Shown: positions 2,735-18,558 of the stretch, piece by piece
Position numbering within the stretch: the first letter of the stretch is position 1
Layout: every line of letters starts with the position of its first letter
DNA from: Acidobacteriaceae bacterium KBS 83
Lineage (GTDB): Bacteria; Acidobacteriota; Terriglobia; Terriglobales; Acidobacteriaceae
NCBI GenBank assembly: GCA_000381585.1
Contig: KB906739.1
Location: 310,001-374,000 of the forward strand
Direction of reading: 5' to 3'
Length of the DNA stretch: 64,000 nt
The notes under the pieces: model-generated
The model's input: the letters and a program-made list of their open reading frames with translations, nothing else
What the model was told of the DNA's origin: nothing
The model's database searches: none
Position numbers and translations under genes: made by a program

Positions 2735-2934
2735 ACACTCAACCATGCACCTATGGTGCAGCGGTGAAAAGTTTAGGTGCCATTTACTGTGTTGCGCCAT
2801 GAGTGCAGCAGACCATATGCATCTAGTACATATGGACTATGGTTTTGAAACGTCACCCCGTGTCACCGTCACGAATCGTTAAGCACAGGTCCGAACGCAA
2901 GGGTCGGACTGATCTGCTGACGAGAGAGCGATCC

Positions 2935-3579
2935 TTGGTCACCACGAAAACAGTCAGTACTATTCGTATCCTGGTTGTCGACGATCATCCGGTCGTGCGC
3001 GCGGGACTCGCAAGCATGCTTTCGACCATTTCCGGGCTCGCCGTATGCGGAGCGGCATCTACGGGCGAAGAAGCATTGCAGCTCATCGACGACGAGCAAC
3101 CCGATGTGCTGCTGCTGGACCTGCGGATGCCAGGGATGACAGGCATCGAGCTTCTCAAGGCAATCCGCGGAAAACCCTCTGCGCCGAAAGCGCTCGTCCT
3201 GACGAGCTATGAATCAGACGAAGAGATCTATCGCGCCATCGAAGCAGGGGCGCAAGGCTATCTGCTGAAGAGCACGCCGCAAGCGGAGATCGTGAGTGCA
3301 ATCCAGTCTGTATACAGCGGGAGACATCACATTCCCCCGCGGATTGCTGCGCGCCTTGCAGAACGCATGGTCCGCTCGGCGCTCACGCAAAGAGAGCTGG
3401 AAATTCTGGAGATGGTGGTGCGCGGGCTCACCAACAAACAAATCGGACATGCTCTCCGTATCAGTGAGAACACCGCGCGCAACCACATCAACAGCATCAT
3501 CCGAAAGCTTGACGTGTCAGGCCGAACAGAAGCGGCGACCGCCGCCATTCAGCAAGGCCTCGTCCGTATGCCGGACTAG
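2935..3579 (+). CDS. NarL/FixJ-type response regulator (receiver plus LuxR HTH)
   Basis: Cytoplasmic two-component response regulator. The receiver domain starts with IRILVVDDHPVVRAG (acidic pocket DD). The phospho-acceptor Asp lies in DVLLLDLRMPG, the switch Thr in VLTSYE and the conserved Lys in LLKS. The C-terminal LuxR/GerE helix-turn-helix reads LTQRELEILEMVVRGLTNKQIG. I prefer the TTG start at 2935, which has GAGAG upstream and gives a normal short N-terminus. An in-frame ATG at 2839 would add a basic 32-residue extension unlike the family. No histidine kinase is adjacent, so it is an orphan regulator here. It lies divergent from the truncated receptor and convergent with the GH51 gene, and its target is unknown. 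Confidence 0.85.
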   Translation: MVTTKTVSTIRILVVDDHPVVRAGLASMLSTISGLAVCGAASTGEEALQLIDDEQPDVLLLDLRMPGMTGIELLKAIRGKPSAPKALVLTSYESDEEIYRAIEAGAQGYLLKSTPQAEIVSAIQSVYSGRHHIPPRIAARLAERMVRSALTQRELEILEMVVRGLTNKQIGHALRISENTARNHINSIIRKLDVSGRTEAATAAIQQGLVRMPD

Positions 3580-3596
3580 ACTACTGCTTACAACCG

Positions 3597-5642
3597 TTAC
3601 CTGCTCACCGCGGTTCGCAACGTGATGACGGTCACGCTTTCGTGCGGAAACACGTGCTGCATGCGACCGCGAGAGACACGCTCCTGATTGATCACGGGCG
3701 AGACCCGCTCCGGCTCGTCCTCATCGTTCTCATCGCTCACGCTTGCGCTGCGCAATGTTTGCACCTCGGCATTTGCACCGGCTGCGAAGTCCTGAATCGC
3801 AATATCAGCAGGAATGTCGACGTTCAAGCTTCGATTTATGCAGAACAGCGAGAGAGTTCTCTTCGAAGCATCGAGCGCGGCAGTCACATCGAGATAAGGA
3901 ACATCTTCGATATCAGGGAGCCGCCCAACGCCGTTCTTCACGGAGTAGCTGCCGCTGTTGCTCACGGCCTCGATGGGTTGGGCAGGATGAGCGGTGGAAT
4001 ACATGCGGAAGGCATAATAGCCGGGTGCTCCATATACCTGGCCGTGGTTCTTCCATATGCCGGCAAACTCCATGATGCCGGTCATGTCAGAGATGGGGAC
4101 TAGGTCCGCATTGCGCATCAGCATGTTGAAGAATCCGGCCGTATCCACCGCCCCTCCCATGTTCCGGAAGCTGGGGACGCCATCGCGGTGGCCGATGAAA
4201 AGCCACTCTGTAAAGGCGACGTGCGCGCGATGCGCGAATTCCGGGTGCTCATCGATCTGCTGCTGGTCGGCGCGCAACTTCCGTCCCAACTCTACGGGCA
4301 ATGCGAAAGCCGCTTGCGTCATGAAGTCGATTGAGGGATGCGTGAGCTTCGTCTGCGTATTGGTGACGACGAAGTGGGTCGAGAGGTAGTCGAAGGTACC
4401 GGCTGGATTCGATAGCTGATGCTCATTCCACGAGTGAAACCAATCCGGATCGCCACCGGTGGCAATTAATTTCGCGGTAGGATCGACGGCACGAATGGCC
4501 TTGCTGAAGGCCAGCGTGCGACCGGCGATCTCATCGGTTGTTGGCCAGCCAACATTCCAATCGCCCCAGAGTTCGTTACCCAGTTCCCAAAACAAACCGC
4601 TGTGCCGTCGCCAATGCTCGTCGATGTAGCGGACCCACTCCGCAGCCTCTTGCGGTGTGCCGCTGCCCAGATTGAGCGCGACCTGCGGCTCTGCGCCGAT
4701 GAGATCGCAGAAATGAAGAAACTCATCAGTGCCGAAAGTGTTGTATTCGGGAATTCCCCAGGCAATGTTCAACATGCTGACGCGCCTGTCTCGCGGGCCG
4801 ATACCGTCACGCCAGTGATAGGAGGAGGTGAAATTGCCGCCGAATCGAACCAAAGGTGTCTCCATCGCTTTGGCCATTGAGACTTCGTCGGGGTCAAGTC
4901 CGTCGAGCGCATCTGCGGGCATCAACGAGACCTGATCGAGATCGACGCGCTCGTCACCGTTAAGCTCGACAACGAAATCGGCTGGCTCCAGGCGCTGCAG
5001 CTCGCCTTCGGGCAGCTGCAGCTGAAAGTCGTACTTTTTCCACTCGTCCGCACTTGCGTCGATCGTCACCGAGGCAAGCAGATCGCTGCTGTTCCGCTTG
5101 CGAAGGGAGATCGTCAATTTGGATGGTCCGCTGAGGTGGCGCGCGAAGAAGCTGCCCTTGTAGGCGAGCGTGCGCTGTACGGGCAGATAGACTTCCTGCT
5201 CGATCCCGGTGGGCTGCCCGGATACGGCAATCACGACCAGTGATCGCCAGGAGTTGGCAGCGTGTCCCCATCTCGGCTCATAGCGGTTGCCCTGTTTCGC
5301 ATTGAGAGGCTCCCAGGGCAATGGCAAACCAAGCGCCGAAGATTCGACCAGCTCCGGACGTTCGTGCACCAGCGCTTGGAGATTCTTCGCACTCCACAGG
5401 TTCTCCTCGAGCGATGGGTTGACCAAAAGCTCCGCCCAGAGACCGTTGTAGGTCGAGTTGCCAATAGGCTCGAGGAAGCTGCCGAAGATGGTTCGGGGGA
5501 TGGGAGCCCCCGCGGACTTGCTCGCATTTACGGTAACCGTGGCGCGAGCCGGTATTGGCTTCACGACTGTGATCTGCGCGCGGCCGGAGAGCGCCATGAC
5601 AGAAGCAGCGGAGATGCATAACACGGTGCGGATAGATGGCAT
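3597..5642 (-). CDS. Secreted alpha-L-arabinofuranosidase, GH51
   Basis: Predicted to release L-arabinofuranosyl groups from arabinan or arabinoxylan in the periplasm or outside the cell. The chosen ATG at 5642 gives a short signal peptide (MPSIRTVLCISAASVMALSGRAQ is split here as MPSIRTVLCISA, VMALSGRAQ). Longer in-frame starts up to 5873 would place charged sequence before it and overlap the hut promoter. A CBM4/9-like beta-sandwich precedes the TIM barrel. The barrel has VRFGGNFTSSYHWRDGIGP, the acid/base Glu in FWELGNELWGDW and a probable nucleophile Glu in VAFTEWLF. The C-terminal beta domain ending VTVITLRT is typical of GH51. Length (681 residues) fits. It ends close to the convergent response-regulator gene. 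The family is confident; the exact substrate is inferred. Confidence 0.85.
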   Translation of the reverse strand: MPSIRTVLCISAASVMALSGRAQITVVKPIPARATVTVNASKSAGAPIPRTIFGSFLEPIGNSTYNGLWAELLVNPSLEENLWSAKNLQALVHERPELVESSALGLPLPWEPLNAKQGNRYEPRWGHAANSWRSLVVIAVSGQPTGIEQEVYLPVQRTLAYKGSFFARHLSGPSKLTISLRKRNSSDLLASVTIDASADEWKKYDFQLQLPEGELQRLEPADFVVELNGDERVDLDQVSLMPADALDGLDPDEVSMAKAMETPLVRFGGNFTSSYHWRDGIGPRDRRVSMLNIAWGIPEYNTFGTDEFLHFCDLIGAEPQVALNLGSGTPQEAAEWVRYIDEHWRRHSGLFWELGNELWGDWNVGWPTTDEIAGRTLAFSKAIRAVDPTAKLIATGGDPDWFHSWNEHQLSNPAGTFDYLSTHFVVTNTQTKLTHPSIDFMTQAAFALPVELGRKLRADQQQIDEHPEFAHRAHVAFTEWLFIGHRDGVPSFRNMGGAVDTAGFFNMLMRNADLVPISDMTGIMEFAGIWKNHGQVYGAPGYYAFRMYSTAHPAQPIEAVSNSGSYSVKNGVGRLPDIEDVPYLDVTAALDASKRTLSLFCINRSLNVDIPADIAIQDFAAGANAEVQTLRSASVSDENDEDEPERVSPVINQERVSRGRMQHVFPHESVTVITLRTAVSR

Positions 5643-5842
5643 CAGATGTTTGGTCCCGGAGATGAATGTCCGCTCAACGCGGCGTAGGCCAGTCTGCGGC
5701 AAGCGCCGTGGAATTGCAAAAATGCCGGAAACTTTTGCTCTCATGCATGGCACAAAAGAATGGACCGTCGGCAAGCTGCGATGTGCTTCTGATAGAAAAG
5801 ATGGTTGGGCCGAAGGCGACCAGCTTCTATGGTGAATCAAAG

Positions 5843-7498
5843 ATGACAGCGCACCCGCAGATTCGGGCACCACGTGGAAACACTAGGACGGCCCGCGGCT
5901 GGATCCAGGAAGCAGCCAAGCGGATGCTGATGAACAACCTGGATCCCGATGTTGCCGAGAAGCCAGAGGAACTGATCGTGTATGGCGGCCGGGGCAAGGC
6001 TGCGCGCAACTGGGAGTGCTATTCAAAGATCGTCGAGACGCTGGATCGTTTGGAGAATGACGAGACGCTGCTGGTGCAATCGGGGAAGCCTGTCGGCGTG
6101 CTGCAAACGCATCCGCTGGCGCCACGCGTTCTGATAGCAAATTCGAACCTGGTGCCGCGTTGGGCAAATTGGGAGGAGTTCGACCGGCTCGATGCCGCGG
6201 GTCTCATGATGTACGGTCAGATGACCGCGGGCTCCTGGATCTATATCGGAACGCAGGGCATCCTGCAGGGCACGTACGAGACCTTCAAGGCCGCAGCAAA
6301 GCAACATTTCAACGGCTCATTGGCCGGCACAATCAGCGTCACGGCTGGACTTGGCGGCATGGGCGGGGCACAGCCGCTCGCTGTAAAGCTCGCCGGCGGC
6401 GTCAGCATCTGCATTGAGGTGGATGCCACGCGGGTGGAACGCCGGCTGAAGACGAAATACCTGGACCGAGCAGCTACTTCGCTGGACGAAGCGATCAGCA
6501 CGGCGCAGCAGGCAAAGCGCAACAAGACCGCGCTTTCAATCGGACTGTTGGGGAATGCTGCGGAGGTGCTGCCGGCAATGGTGCGCTCCGGCTTTACACC
6601 TGAACTGGTCACCGACCAGACAAGCGCGCATGATCCCATGTGGGGTTATCTTCCACCGGCACTGGTGGATGAAGACCTGAACACGCTCCGCGCTCAGAAT
6701 CCGGCGGCTTACCTGGAACGCGTGCGGGCTGCCATGGCGGTGCATGTGCAGGCAATTCTCGAGATGCGGCGATGCGGCGCGGTTGCATTCGACTATGGGA
6801 ACAACCTGCGGACGCAGGCGAAGGAGGCGGGAGTCGGCGATGCGTTTAACTATCCCGGCTTTGTGCCCGCATTTATCCGGGATTCGTTTTGCGAAGGCCG
6901 CGGGCCGTTCCGATGGGTTGCACTTTCCGGAGATGCGGACGACATCGCGAAGACGGATGCGGCGTTGCTGAAGTTATTTCCCGACGATGAGCGGCTGCAA
7001 CAATGGCTGCGCTTTGCCTCAAAGGAAATCGCCTATCAGGGGTTGCCAGCCCGCATCTGCTGGCTCGGCTATCGCGAGCGCGACAAGGCCGGTCTGCTCT
7101 TCAATCAACTGGTTCGTGACGGCGAACTTTCAGCACCCATAGTCATTGGCAGGGATCATCTGGATGCAGGATCCGTCGCGAGTCCTTATCGCGAGACGGA
7201 AGGCATGCTGGACGGATCGGATGCCGTCTCTGACTGGGCGTTGCTTAATTTCGCGACCGGCATCGCAAGCGGTGCGGGTTGGATGAGTTTCCACCACGGC
7301 GGCGGAGTGGGTATGGGCTATAGCCAGCATGCCGGGCTGGTGGCTGTGGCTGACGGAAGCGAAGAAGCGGACCAGCGGCTCCGCCTCTGCCTGACCAATG
7401 ATCCGGCAATGGGCGTGATACGGCACGCGGATGCTGGCTATCGGAAGGCGCAGGAGGTGGCGCGGGATCGCGGTCTCGACATGCCAAGCCTTCGATGA
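5843..7498 (+). CDS. hutU: Urocanate hydratase
   Basis: Converts urocanate to 4-imidazolone-5-propionate, the second step of histidine degradation, using tightly bound NAD+, in the cytoplasm. The 551-residue product matches the usual length. Family sequence is clear throughout: [39 protein letters not shown], the NAD-binding [16 protein letters not shown], the catalytic region [11 protein letters not shown], and [16 protein letters not shown] near the C-terminus. I chose the ATG at 5843, where the family N-terminus begins; an in-frame ATG at 5666 would run into the divergent GH51 signal-peptide region. It is the first gene of the hut operon. hutH (histidine ammonia-lyase) is not adjacent. Confidence 0.96.
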
Positions 7499-11985: not shown

Positions 11986-13494
11986 CTACAGATAATCGAA
12001 CAAGGTCATGAAGCCGAAGTCCATGTGGAGCTGTTGATGGCAGTGAAAGAGTGTCATCCCAGGATTGTTGGCCACAAAATCGATCTCCGCTTCCTGATAG
12101 CCACCGAGCATTAATACGTCTTTCATCAGCCCTGCCATTGGCGCGCCGGCATAGCGAGTCAACTCAAAAGTGTGCCGGTGCAGATGAATAGGATGAATAT
12201 CATCGCTGGCGTTGCGCATTTTGATCCGGTATCGTTTGCCCTGTTTCAAATGATGAGAAGGCGTCGCCATCATTTGGGTATCCGGGTACGCAACGCCATT
12301 GATCGTCCACCGGTTGAAGCCGGCATCTGCGGCATTGTCTTTAGCAAATGTCATTTCAAGGATCTCATCGGGAGCAGGCGCTGAAGCTCCCGCCTTCGCA
12401 AAGCTTGCATAATCCCACCGGAAATGCGGCGGCGCTACCCATTGCGGTTTGCCACTGCGATCTCCATACTCGACGACGATTCCCATCCCGTGACTGCGAT
12501 CGTCGTCGGCAAGATCGCCGAGTACCCAGACCCCGGGATGGTTCATTTCCACGATCGCAGATATACGTTCAGCGGTTCCAATCCACAAGACAGGAACTCT
12601 CGCAGGTGTAGGCACAGAATTGCCATCCATAGCAACAACCTCAAAGGAATGCCCTGGCAATGCGAGGCTGCGTATCTCTGTCGCACTACCGTTCAGCACA
12701 TGGAAAAGAACACGTTCGCCTTGCTTCACTCGGATCGGTTCGCCGTGACCAAGCATTTTTCCATTGATGGTGAATGAACCGTAGCCTACTTCGAAGCCAT
12801 GCGGCATTCCCTTTGCCAGAGAAACCTTCATTGCCGACTCGCCACGCTCCTTCAGATCAGAAACGGTTGAAGATGGCGATAGGAAATCCTGCGCCATATC
12901 ACCTCCCCGACTGAAAGTTGGCTCAAACTCCTTCAATACAAGGAAGACTTCGCGGTCGTAATTGCCCGGTTCGTGCGATGACTCGATATATACGGGCCCT
13001 ACTTGGCCGCTGTACTGGCCCGCGTTCAGGTTCGCTCCCGCGCGGGCATGGGTGTGGTAAAAGCGAAACCCGGCCGGACGCGGAGTGAACGTGATGCGAC
13101 GCATGCCATGTGAAGGAACGAAAGGTGTTCCTTCCTCCGCGGCGCCGTCGACATCACTGGGCACGACTTGACCGTGCCAATGCAACTGCTCCGGCGTATC
13201 CGTATCGTTATAGATCGCGACGGTGATCTGCTGGCCTTCTTTGAAGCGAAGCAAGGGACCCGGGAAATTGCCACCGTAGGTAGTCGTAGAAAGAATGCGA
13301 TTCGGCGCAATTTCGACCGCGGCCACCGCAATGTGTAGAGTGTAGTCAGCCGGTTCGGCTTCTTTGCCGACAACATCGGTTTGTGAGGCCGGCCGCGACG
13401 CCGTACGAGAACAGCCTGCTGAAACAAGAGATGTAGCTGTTGCCGCGCCTGCAGCTTTGAGAAATGCCCTGCGAGAGAATGAGTCGCGGATCAT
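11986..13494 (-). CDS. Tat-exported multicopper oxidase
   Basis: Laccase-like multicopper oxidase acting in the periplasm, either on Cu(I) or on phenolics. The Tat signal is visible at the start (SRRAFLKAAGAATATSLVSAGC; the Cys could be a lipobox). All four copper motifs are present: QLHWHGQ and YHTHAR in the first cupredoxin domain, HPIHLHRHTFEL and LFHCHQQLHMDFGFM in the last. The Met of the final motif fits a type-1 copper ligand. I chose the ATG at 13494, which has GGAGGAG 6 bases upstream, over a GTG-type extension to 13605. Length is 502 residues. A minus-strand cobalamin riboswitch lies about 470 bp upstream with no intact gene between them. Confidence 0.9.
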   Translation of the reverse strand: MIRDSFSRRAFLKAAGAATATSLVSAGCSRTASRPASQTDVVGKEAEPADYTLHIAVAAVEIAPNRILSTTTYGGNFPGPLLRFKEGQQITVAIYNDTDTPEQLHWHGQVVPSDVDGAAEEGTPFVPSHGMRRITFTPRPAGFRFYHTHARAGANLNAGQYSGQVGPVYIESSHEPGNYDREVFLVLKEFEPTFSRGGDMAQDFLSPSSTVSDLKERGESAMKVSLAKGMPHGFEVGYGSFTINGKMLGHGEPIRVKQGERVLFHVLNGSATEIRSLALPGHSFEVVAMDGNSVPTPARVPVLWIGTAERISAIVEMNHPGVWVLGDLADDDRSHGMGIVVEYGDRSGKPQWVAPPHFRWDYASFAKAGASAPAPDEILEMTFAKDNAADAGFNRWTINGVAYPDTQMMATPSHHLKQGKRYRIKMRNASDDIHPIHLHRHTFELTRYAGAPMAGLMKDVLMLGGYQEAEIDFVANNPGMTLFHCHQQLHMDFGFMTLFDYL

Positions 13495-13959
13495 CGTATT
13501 CTCCTCCGTCGGCGAGAGAGCCGCCTCGGCTCCCATCAGGTCGTCGAAAAGCAAGGTTACCCCGAGAGCGATGAAAAACTGAAAGTGCCAGTTGGCGCGC
13601 CCCAAGCAGAGCGTCTCTGCGCTATTGCGACCAGCGGCGATCTCAGTCGCAGAACAGAGAGAACAATCGCATGGCTCGGGCCAACTCCGCGAAGCCAGTG
13701 CACGGCGGGAACTTCCGTGTCGTCGGGTCTGTGCCCGTGGTGTTCGCTGAGGACTCGGGGATTATGCGACAGTTGAAAATCATCGTTGCCGATCGTCGGA
13801 CAATTCGGCGCGCAACTCTTACCCTCGATTAGAACCACCTAATGCGCAGGCTAGCTCCGCCTGAGTGAAAGAGCCGCAGGCAGAAGATGCAGTGGCCACC
13901 GGTCCAGTGCACGAGAACGGTCTCTTCAACGCATCCATGGTCAGCGTCCAGCCCTTCCA
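13495..13959. other. Gap between multicopper oxidase and minus-strand riboswitch, no intact gene
   Basis: Both strands were read. The minus strand has short open stretches in all three frames, one of them giving EVPAVHWLRGVGPSHAIVL near 13680 and another the hydrophobic FFIALGVTLLF just before the oxidase start. None has a ribosome-binding site or a family I can name. This could be a decayed riboswitch-controlled gene or a long untranslated leader. Confidence 0.4.
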
Positions 13960-14130
13960 TCGTGGTGGCCTCAGGCCGGTCTTCGGACTTTGGGTGACCT
14001 ACTCTGTTGCCGCTTTCCATCTCCATCGAGACAGTGCGATGGCTCGCGCCGTGCGACGTTTCGTTCCCATTACCCCTGCGGGACAGCGCTGGATTCTCAC
14101 CAGCCTTCCCGATTAACTAAACCCTAATCA
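13960..14130 (-). promoter_or_regulatory. Cobalamin riboswitch, minus strand, without an adjacent intact gene
   Basis: Reading the minus strand from about 14113, the core GGGAAGGCTGGTGAGAATCC, then GCGCTGTCCCGC and GGGTAA, follow the cobalamin-aptamer consensus. The B12 box AAGTCCGAAGACCGGCC lies at 13974-13990 in the correct order and spacing. The first minus-strand coding sequence downstream is the multicopper oxidase, whose ATG is about 470 bp away. The 5' and 3' limits are approximate because the closing helix P1 was only judged by eye. Confidence 0.85.
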
Positions 14131-14261
14131 GGGCTTGACCTGCACCCGCTCAATCTACATGTGGGGCACACTTCGTTACGGAATGCGGTTGTTTTATCGC
14201 ACCTCAGCGTCTGGCGGATATCCACAAGTCGTAGCCATTGCAATTATTCGGAGCCCAAGAT

Positions 14262-14445
14262 ATGGTAGGCGAGTTCCTCGGTCCCTCTAGTTGAGGGTGA
14301 AACGGGAATCCGGTGAAAGTCCGGAACTGCCCCGCAGCGGTAAGCAGGTACGAACGCCAAGTTTGACACTGAGCCTGGTAGCTCGGGAAGTCTGGCAAGT
14401 AGGGTTGAGCCTGTAAGTCCGAAGACCTGCCTGGGAAATATTCGC
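14262..14445 (+). promoter_or_regulatory. Cobalamin riboswitch of the nrdAB operon
   Basis: Adenosylcobalamin-binding aptamer in the nrdA leader. The core ACGGGAATCCGGTGAAAGTC, then GGAACTGCCCCGC and CGGTAA, runs from about 14302 to 14343. The conserved GAGCCTGGTAGCTCGGGAAG stretch follows, and the B12 box AAGTCCGAAGACCTGCC is at 14415-14431. nrdA starts 114 bp after the B12 box. By analogy with known cobalamin-controlled class I reductases, B12 binding should switch the operon off when a B12-dependent reductase can work (inference). Ends are approximate. Confidence 0.95.
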
Positions 14446-14448
14446 TGA

Positions 14449-14545: not shown

Positions 14546-17401
14546 ATGGCCACTCAGACCCACAGTTTTGACACCGTTTCCCTGATTCCACCGGCTGGAC
14601 ATGGCAATGGCCATGGCCTTTCTCAGCAACGTCAGCCGGGACTTCAGGTCATCCGGCGAAACGGTTCCTTTTCACCCTTCGACACCAGCAAAATCAGCGT
14701 CGCAATTACCAAAGCCTTTGTCGCGGTCGAAGGGACCGAGGCAACAGCATCCCGACGCATTCGGGAGGCGGTGGAAGTGCTTACGCACCAGATCGTTGAG
14801 GCGCTGAGCCGCCGCTCCGAGCCGGGACGGCCCATGCACATCGAGGACATTCAGGACCAGGTAGAGCTTGCTCTAATGCGCAGCGGAGAGCACAAGGTGG
14901 CACGCGCCTACGTGCTCTATCGGGAAGAGCGTGCACAGGAGCGTCGTAGACGCGAAGAGCGGACGCCCGCAACTTCGCAGCCCCAGCTTCATGTGCGCCT
15001 CCAGGATGGACAGGTCGAGCCATTGGACGAGGCGCGATTGCTCCAGGATATTGCTGCCGCTTGCGCTGGACTCGATGGAGTCTCTGCCGACGCAGTCATG
15101 GCTGAGGTCCGCCGGAATCTCTATGACGGTATCCTCCTGCACGAGCTTGGCCTCGTCCAGACCATGGCGGCACGGTCTCTTGTGGAACAGGACCCAAACT
15201 ACGCTTACGTCAGCGCGAGACTCCTGCTGAATATCGTGCGCGAGGAGGCTCTAGCGCTTGTGTTTCCCAATGAGACCTCGACCTCCCAGAGTGATAGCAA
15301 ACCGGACTACAAGGAGTACTTTCCTGAATTTGTCCGACGCGGTATCGAGTTGCGGATATTGGACCGGGAACTTGGGAATTTTGATCTAAACCGGCTGGCG
15401 GCTGCTTTGAAACCGGAGCGCGACCGCAACTTCCAGTTCCTTGGGCTGCAAACTCTCTATGACCGATACTTCCTGCATAAAGATGGCGTTCGCTACGAGC
15501 TGCCGCAGGCGTTTTTTATGCGGGTGTCGATGGGACTTGCTCTCCGGGAGATCGACCGAAATGCGACGGCGATCGAATTCTACGAGCTTCTCTCCTCCTT
15601 CGATTTCATGTGCTCCACGCCAACCCTCTTTAATGCGGGGACATTGCGCCCTCAGCTCTCGTCCTGCTTTCTCACAACGATTTCGGACGATCTGGACGGG
15701 ATATTCAAGGCGATCAGGGACAACGCGCTGCTCTCGAAATATGCGGGCGGTCTCGGGAACGACTGGAGTGGCGTACGAGGTCTGGGTGCGCATATACGCG
15801 GAACGAACGGTCAATCACAGGGCGTTGTTCCCTTCCTCAAGGTTGCCAATGATACCGCCATCGCGGTGAATCAGGGCGGAAAGCGTAAGGGCGCTGTCTG
15901 CGGATACCTGGAGACATGGCATATCGACATCGAAGAATTCCTCGACCTGCGCAAGAACACAGGCGATGATCGTCGTCGCACCCATGATATGAACACGGCC
16001 AACTGGGTGCCCGATCTTTTCATGGAAAGGGTAGAGAAAGACGGGAGCTGGACGCTATTCTCCCCCGACGAGGTGCCTGACCTTCACGACCTCTATGGAC
16101 ACGCGTTCGCCGAGCGTTATGCATTCTATGAGGCGAAGTCTCAGCGGGGAGAACTGAAAGTCGCGCGCACGGTTCGTGCTGTCGATCTGTGGCGCAAGAT
16201 GCTCACGATGCTGTTCGAGACCGGGCATCCATGGATTACCTTCAAAGACCCCTGCAACCTCCGCTCGCCGCAGCAGCACGCCGGTGTTGTTCACTCTTCT
16301 AACCTCTGCACAGAAATTACGTTGAACACAAGTCAACGTGAGATCGCCGTCTGCAACCTCGGCTCAATCAATCTCGCGAACCACGTCACCGAGGACGGTA
16401 TCGACCAGGATCGGCTAAAGAAGACCGTCACGACAGCCATGCGAATGCTCGACAACGTGATTGACGTCAACTTCTACACAGTGCCCGAAGCACGCTACTC
16501 GAACCTTCGTCACCGTCCCGTGGGGCTCGGCATCATGGGTTATCAGGATGCGCTCTATGCGTTGCGCATTCCGTATGCCTCGCAGGAGGCAGTGCGATTT
16601 GCAGACGAGAGTATGGAAATTATCAGCTTCCACGCCATCTCCGCATCGGTTGATCTTGCGGCAGAGCGTGGGCGTTATGCCACGTTTGAAGGTTCGCTCT
16701 GGAGCAAGGGAATTCTTCCTATCGATTCCATCGAACTGCTGCAGGACAGCCGAAACGACACATTGATGCTCGATCGTTCGTCCAAACTCGACTGGGCCGG
16801 ACTGCGCGGACGAGTCCAGACGATCGGTATGCGCAACTCCAACACAATGGCGATTGCACCCACCGCAACCATCTCCAACATCTGCGGTGTCACACAGTCG
16901 ATTGAGCCGACCTATCAGAACCTGTTTGCGAAGTCGAACATGTCGGGTGACTTTACGGTCGTCAACGCGGCGTTGGTTCGCGACCTCAAAAACCGCGGCC
17001 TTTGGGACGAGGTGACGGTGAGTGATCTTAAATACTTCGATGGCTCGCTTGGCCCGATCGATCGCGTTCCGGACGACCTGAAGCAGCTCTACGCCACATC
17101 ATTCGAGATTGAACCGACATGGTTGATTCAGGCAGCGGCTCGGCGTCAGAAATGGATCGACCAGGCGCAGTCCCTGAACCTGTACATCGCGCAGCCGAGC
17201 GGTAAGAAACTCGACAGTCTCTACCGCGAGGCATGGCACGCGGGCTTGAAGACGACCTACTATCTTCGGTCTCGCAGCGCAACACACGTGGAGAAGTCCA
17301 CGCTGAAACGGACCGATGGAAGGCTGAATGCAGTCTCGCTTGATGCGGCAGCGCCGCAAGCCTGTGCAATCAACGATCCCACCTGTGAAGCATGCCAGTA
17401 G
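14546..17401 (+). CDS. nrdA: Ribonucleoside-diphosphate reductase, class I alpha subunit
   Basis: Catalytic subunit that reduces ribonucleotides to deoxyribonucleotides. The start has AAAGGAG 8 bases upstream. The 951-residue protein begins with two ATP-cone-like modules ([17 protein letters not shown] and [17 protein letters not shown]), which mediate allosteric control. The ten-stranded barrel follows. Active-site residues are C374 in LSSCFL and C603 in AVCNLGSI (redox pair), C588 (thiyl), N586 and E590 in NLCTEI. The C-terminal CEAC supplies the shuttle cysteines. A cobalamin riboswitch precedes it, and it overlaps or nearly overlaps nrdB. The repeated cones resemble those of chlamydial NrdA, the partner of Mn/Fe NrdB. 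Confidence 0.96.
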
Positions 17402-17427
17402 ATATTGCAATGAAAAAGGGAGAGCCG

Positions 17428-18558
17428 ATGCTTGATCGGAGTGAAACAATCAATGAGAGTCCGTGCGAGTTGGTGCTGACTTCACCTCCGGTACGAGAAG
17501 ATTCCGACGCCAGTGGTTTGGGCAAGATCGCGCGCGGAGCGACCCGCGTTCGCGTCGATGACAAAGCCATGATCAACTGTCGTGCGGACGTGAACCAACT
17601 TCTGCCGCTCAAGTATCGCTGGGCGTGGGAGAAATACCTGTCCGGTTGCAACAACCACTGGATGCCAACGGAGATTTCCATGCAGGCCGATATCGGTCTA
17701 TGGAAGAGTTCCGACGGTCTCACAGCGGGCGAACGGCTGGTGATCAAAAGGAATCTCGGCTTCTTCGCTGCCTCGGAATCGTTGGTGGCGAACAATATCG
17801 TGCTCGCAATCTACCGCCATCTGACAAATCCTGAGTGCCGCCAGTATCTACTTCGGCAAGCGTTTGAAGAGGCCGTTCATACCCACACCTTTCAGTACAT
17901 CGTAGAAAGTCTCGGTCTCGATGAGGGTGAACTCTTCAACATGTATCGTGAGGTTCCATCCATCACTGAAAAGGCCGCGTGGGCGATCCAATATACGCAG
18001 AACCTGAGCGATCCGTCGTTTACTACGGGATCGGTCGCAGCAAACCGCGCGTTCCTGCGCGACCTCATCGCCTTTTATGTTGTCTTCGAGGGTATTTGGT
18101 TCTACACCGGCTTCGTTCAGATCCTTTCGATGGGTCGCCGCAATAAGATGATCGGCATCGCGGAACAGTACCAATACATCCTGCGCGACGAGTCGATTCA
18201 TCTGAACTTCGGTATCGATGTCATCAACCAGATCAAGATTGAAAACCCTCGTCTGTGGAACGATACATTCCAGCAGGAAGTCCGAGGGATGCTCCAAAAG
18301 GCTGCTGAACTCGAAGCAGCATATGGGCACGACACCATGCCAAATGGTTTTCTCGGCCTGAGCGCCGGGTTGTGCGAGCAGTACATGCACTTCATCGCCA
18401 ATCGCAGATGCTTGCAGTTGGGGCTTGAGCAGGTTTTTCCATCATGCGACAATCCATTTCCCTGGATGTCCGAAGCGATGGACTTGAGGAAGGAAAAGAA
18501 CTTTTTTGAGACGCGAGTCACCGAATACCAGAACGGTGGATCATTGGCCTGGGATTAG
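17428..18558 (+). CDS. nrdB: Ribonucleotide reductase beta subunit, class Ic (Chlamydia-type R2c)
   Basis: Ferritin-like R2 subunit that generates the oxidant for NrdA. I chose the ATG at 17428, preceded by AAGGGAGAG; ATGs at 17392 and 17410 are alternatives. Metal ligands in this numbering are E117 (ESLVANN), E148 and H151 (EEAVH), E221 (FEGIWFY), E255 and H258 (RDESIH). The position of the radical Tyr is F155 (HTHTF). In Chlamydia trachomatis R2 the corresponding residues are E89, E120, H123, E193, E227, H230 and F127, and a single offset aligns all of them. That pattern defines class Ic enzymes with a Mn(IV)/Fe(III) cofactor (family knowledge). The C-terminus ([22 protein letters not shown]) is also of this type. 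Confidence 0.95.

Follow-up and report, generated by a model that had tools for sequence, protein, structure and literature searches.

A cobalamin riboswitch that has probably outlived its metE gene in an acidobacterium

Cobalamin riboswitches of the RF00174 family are known from the leaders of metE genes, as in M. tuberculosis (PMC11260477), and in Listeria the non-coding RNAs AspocR and Rli55 are controlled by B12 riboswitches (PMC8079631). In this study, we analysed a stretch of 64,000 nucleotides (the window) from Acidobacteriaceae bacterium KBS 83, in which a cobalamin riboswitch on the minus strand faces a gap that ends at a multicopper oxidase gene. The features concerned are:

11986-13494, minus strand: multicopper oxidase with a Tat-like signal, SRRAFLKAAG (Pfam Cu-oxidase, _2 and _3)
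13598-13703, plus strand: relic of an AraC-family regulator, an internal fragment with best stretch PQAERLCAIATSGDLSRRTERTIAWL (similarity to the G001 AraC gene)
13810-13830, minus strand: end of homology and probable loss junction; relatives have a Shine-Dalgarno sequence, the 3' arm GGAGAGAACC and the metE ATG, where the window has GAGGGTAAGAGTTGCG and no ATG
13831-13956, minus strand: probable remnant of the expression platform of metE (comparison with intact leaders; pairing table)
13957-14158, minus strand: cobalamin riboswitch aptamer, probably an orphaned metE leader (RF00174, 81.5 bits; 83% identity to the G182 metE leader)
13974-13990, minus strand: B12 box, AAGTCCGAAGACCGGCC (direct reading; comparison with 27 metE leaders)
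14262-14448, plus strand: cobalamin riboswitch aptamer of the nrdAB operon (RF00174, 112.1 bits)
14546-17401, plus strand: nrdA, class I ribonucleotide reductase large chain (Pfam; NF005544, 1659.8 bits)
17392-18558, plus strand: nrdB, class I ribonucleotide reductase small chain (Pfam; NF005550, 657.9 bits)

When the whole window was scanned against Rfam with Infernal (cmscan), exactly two matches were obtained, both to RF00174. The minus-strand match (E 1.7e-18) lies above the family's gathering cut-off of 31.5 bits and covers all 189 model positions (1-189) without truncation, so that by its sequence the element qualifies as a complete member of the family. This bears out the initial annotation, which had read a full aptamer core there, with the B12 box AAGTCCGAAGACCGGCC running from 13990 to 13974. 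The same annotation had placed the element about 130 bp from the nrd aptamer and facing the other way; the orientation holds, and the spacing of the two back-to-back aptamers is 103 nt. No further RNA family was found in the leader or the gap, even at a relaxed threshold.

The oxidase begins 463 nt past the aptamer (earlier given as about 470 bp), at an ATG at 13494 that has its own Shine-Dalgarno sequence, GGAGGAG; its frame could open to 13605, the natural start being the ATG. The protein is CopA-like, although its score is under the NCBIfam cut-off. The frames between aptamer and oxidase had been described as broken, and the stop-to-stop frames in 13495-13957 are indeed short (59-95 codons on the minus strand). 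A Pfam search of ten of them, on both strands and at a relaxed E-value, gave no convincing match (best E 0.18), and on these ten frames CbtA/CbtB, NicO and other small genes of the B12 regulon were rejected as candidates. What the gap does contain is 105 nt that are 76% identical at the DNA level to the G001 AraC gene (22 of 26 amino acids in the best frame), a segment with homologs in G413, G231 and G063 as well; the intact gene carries Pfam AraC_N/HTH_18. Apart from this fragment and short marginal matches, the gap has no convincing DNA homology in 398 family genomes. The relic and the oxidase were also considered as a unit, and this was rejected as the sequences upstream of homologous oxidases do not match the gap; the upstream side of the G001 AraC gene holds a cupin and a short-chain dehydrogenase, and no oxidase. 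Likewise rejected was the oxidase as the ancestral target of the riboswitch, since a cobalamin riboswitch was present at none of 20 homologous oxidase loci.

The homologs of the leader point to a different gene. In an initial comparison with 60 relatives, the aptamer and about 100 further bases matched G032, where the next gene is metE. With window positions 13780-14180 as the query against 300 family genomes, and E below 1e-8 taken as a clear match, 28 other genomes proved to carry the leader, and metE follows in the same orientation in 28 of 28, 39-309 bp beyond the match (the distance is longest in G067 because its leader aligns only in part). Among the weaker matches, at least that in G153 also lies upstream of metE; the rest, where checked, are different cobalamin riboswitches. 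In the closest relative, G182, the leader aligned over window positions 14147-13831 (83% identity, 314 nt), and the protein downstream is metE (TIGR01371, 1057.7 bits; Pfam Meth_synt_1 and _2). The homology reaches past the generic aptamer to include about 125 nt of expression platform. As the homologous leader precedes metE in 28 genomes, we conclude that the lost gene was most likely metE, which encodes cobalamin-independent methionine synthase, and we give a probability of roughly 0.88 to the minus-strand aptamer being the 5' leader of this gene. The earlier suggestion that the gene of this riboswitch was lost is therefore upheld, whereas the cobalt transporter proposed as the usual gene gives way to metE on the grounds of leader homology, synteny and absence.

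The gene itself is gone, being absent directly downstream of the orphan leader, from the gap and from the whole genome. In an assembly rated 99.3% complete, the G032 protein found no match at E 1e-10 or 1e-100, and TIGR01371 found none at E 1; a translated search of the gap for a metE remnant gave chance-level matches only. Relocation of metE within the genome was considered and rejected, as the protein and TIGR01371 searches of this assembly found no copy. The genome keeps the B12-dependent metH (G000:C5:546075-549466, minus strand) as two adjacent frames, and it also encodes a class II, B12-dependent ribonucleotide reductase. The metH split, into an N-terminal part and the rest, is seen in several relatives too. 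The only other cobalamin riboswitch of this genome, its third, lies at L055 2599-2818 ahead of a TonB-dependent receptor (2850-5333) that resembles BtuB with a score under the family cut-off. Elsewhere in the family, pairs of cobalamin riboswitches in the same orientation and 150-180 bp apart, possibly tandem, occur at G013:C40:21587-22123, G017:C68:1218-1724 and G057:C265:15775-16291.

Synteny agrees with the leader comparison. The nrdA gene of G182, 88% identical to that of the window, is the closest among the 300 genomes, and it diverges from a metE gene that is still in place, with back-to-back riboswitches between the two. The same divergent metE/nrdAB pair with back-to-back riboswitches occurs in an independent acidobacterial metagenome-assembled genome, WY4.bin103, and, with two cobalamin riboswitches, in Bradyrhizobium cenepequi. 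Comparison of synteny in relatives, which the initial annotation had advised, thus shows the arrangement kept both within the family (G182) and in WY4.bin103 (L236); where the region upstream of nrdA was compared in further family genomes with a close copy, it holds no metE. The nrd-leader tree, with weak support, does not place the window genome beside G182, and the history of the nrdAB-metE pair may therefore include transfer. In B. cenepequi (L237), riboswitches of 132.3 and 135.7 bits lie between metE and nrdA (5342-5894), and nrdA is 73% identical to that of the window; the module may have moved laterally between Acidobacteria and Rhizobiales. A further divergent pair, at about 4000-9985 of L151 (G320:C8), consists of metE with its riboswitch and, in the opposite direction, nrdD and an nrdG-like gene preceded by a second cobalamin riboswitch of 124.6 bits. 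It seems that metE pairs repeatedly with B12-independent ribonucleotide reductases.

Intact metE leaders end in CCTGCGCAtGGGTGGTTCTTT...AGGAGAGAACC..ATG, in which GGTTC would pair with GAACC, covering the Shine-Dalgarno sequence. The GGTGG that overlaps GGTTC has a possible partner of its own in an upstream CCACC (or CCGCC) by the B12 box. The latter, putative antisequestor pair is kept in every leader that our script parsed; in G018 and G094 its strands are CCATC and GATGG, changes that match each other and may stem from a single event. The script chose another partner first in G032, G203, G119 and G320 and left G233 unparsed; GAACC is nonetheless visible in the aligned leaders of G032, G203 and G119, and AAACC in that of G320. 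In the window, pairing is possible between GGTGG (13839-13835) and CCACC (13968-13964, just within the aptamer match), and GGTTC (13836-13832) corresponds to the 5' arm of the Shine-Dalgarno hairpin. These motifs are followed by AATCGAGGGTAAGAGTTGCG and no ATG, and thus the loss begins at about 13831-13810; the homology ends at about 13831, just ahead of the position of the metE Shine-Dalgarno sequence. The canonical 3' arm is missing, so that the window leader lacks the GGTTC...GAACC hairpin before an ATG and has only a G-U-rich AGAGTT, for which weak pairing is possible.

The orphan aptamer may be decaying, albeit slowly. A tree of 15 metE leaders gives the window a branch of 0.23 versus 0.10 for G182; in the nrd leader tree the two branches are equal (0.16 and 0.16). 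The relative-rate chi2 for the metE leader is 0.1-6.1 depending on the outgroup, the outgroups not being independent, so the rate excess is nominally significant and suggestive only. Of 89 near-invariant columns, 3 are changed in the window versus 0-1 in most close relatives, with more distant metE leaders differing at 3-8. The GGGAA core has a one-base insertion (an extra G in GGGAAGGCTGG) that is seen in 0 of 27 other leaders. The score of 81.5 bits is low for the group and within the range of intact leaders (50-109), so decay would be mild and residual function possible. As far as the sequence goes, the data fit a recent loss with mild relaxation; that ligand binding has been lost does not follow.

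We propose the following history. The ancestral locus would have held divergent genes for B12-independent isozymes, nrdAB and metE, with a cobalamin riboswitch in front of each that would shut it off when B12 is plentiful, the OFF direction being our inference, as are the switching mechanism and the lack of present output. The intact metE platform looks translational: GGTTC-GAACC would hide the Shine-Dalgarno sequence, and the alternative CCACC-GGTGG pairing would release it. In this genome, metE would have been deleted from about the Shine-Dalgarno sequence onward, and the leader now appears to be decaying. What follows it is the AraC relic and an unrelated oxidase, so it seems to have no reading frame to control. 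Most likely, this is a recently orphaned metE riboswitch whose regulatory output is probably none.

Re-use of the leader after the loss of metE, either to place the oxidase under B12 control or as a stand-alone B12-sensing RNA, is unlikely. The initial annotation had allowed for control of the oxidase through a long leader; if captured, the oxidase would be switched by B12 from a leader some 660 nt long. Aptamer and oxidase are on the same strand with no annotated gene between them, and the minus strand of the gap showed no intrinsic-terminator-like site. However, the oxidase has a Shine-Dalgarno sequence of its own, the 3' arm with which the leader would hide one is gone, and its 20 riboswitch-free homologous loci give this reading no comparative support. 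Nor is this family of oxidases known to be connected with B12, and we consider capture improbable. Less probable still, by analogy with AspocR and Rli55, is that the leader gives rise to a non-coding or antisense RNA under B12 control. Besides the Listeria precedent (PMC8079631), a transcript reading on past the aptamer would cover the AraC relic in antisense, but the relic is a fragment and so offers no local target; the same gap occurs in no second genome, so that no conservation supports a function, and neither a minus-strand terminator nor a sigma-70-like promoter was found, although acidobacterial promoters may not fit the scan. Hardly credible is a short B12-regulon gene (CbtB-like or other) undetected in the gap, because the minus-strand frames of 59-95 codons that could hold it have no convincing Pfam match, the 398 family genomes show only the AraC fragment and short marginal DNA matches, and the first 125 nt, which underlie two of these frames, are metE leader.

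With an orphaned metE leader as the preferred reading, the locus is a modest gene-loss snapshot, made of ordinary parts in an informative arrangement. It would show a bacterium becoming B12-dependent for methionine, the B12-independent enzyme being lost and the B12-dependent one kept, and a regulatory RNA outliving the gene it once controlled. An isolated riboswitch can thereby be traced to its lost gene through synteny; assignment to the nearest gene would mislead here, as the oxidase would be called B12-regulated. With its back-to-back riboswitches, the recurrent pairing of metE and nrdAB (nrdD in G320) resembles a B12-independence module. In a partial coverage of the literature, no title or abstract that we found describes this case.

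Compared with known systems, the window shares with the metE riboswitches, such as that of M. tuberculosis (PMC11260477), its aptamer family, its B12 box and what looks like a translational-type platform in which an arm pairing with the Shine-Dalgarno sequence competes with an upstream strand; unlike them, it is without metE, its Shine-Dalgarno sequence and the canonical 3' arm. Like AspocR and Rli55 (PMC8079631), it has a cobalamin aptamer with no gene directly after it, but those RNAs have known targets and premature termination, neither a target nor a terminator being found here. The divergent metE/nrdAB pairs of G182, WY4.bin103 and B. cenepequi resemble the window in having nrdAB behind a riboswitch and a second riboswitch placed and oriented alike; in the window an AraC relic and a multicopper oxidase stand in the place of metE.
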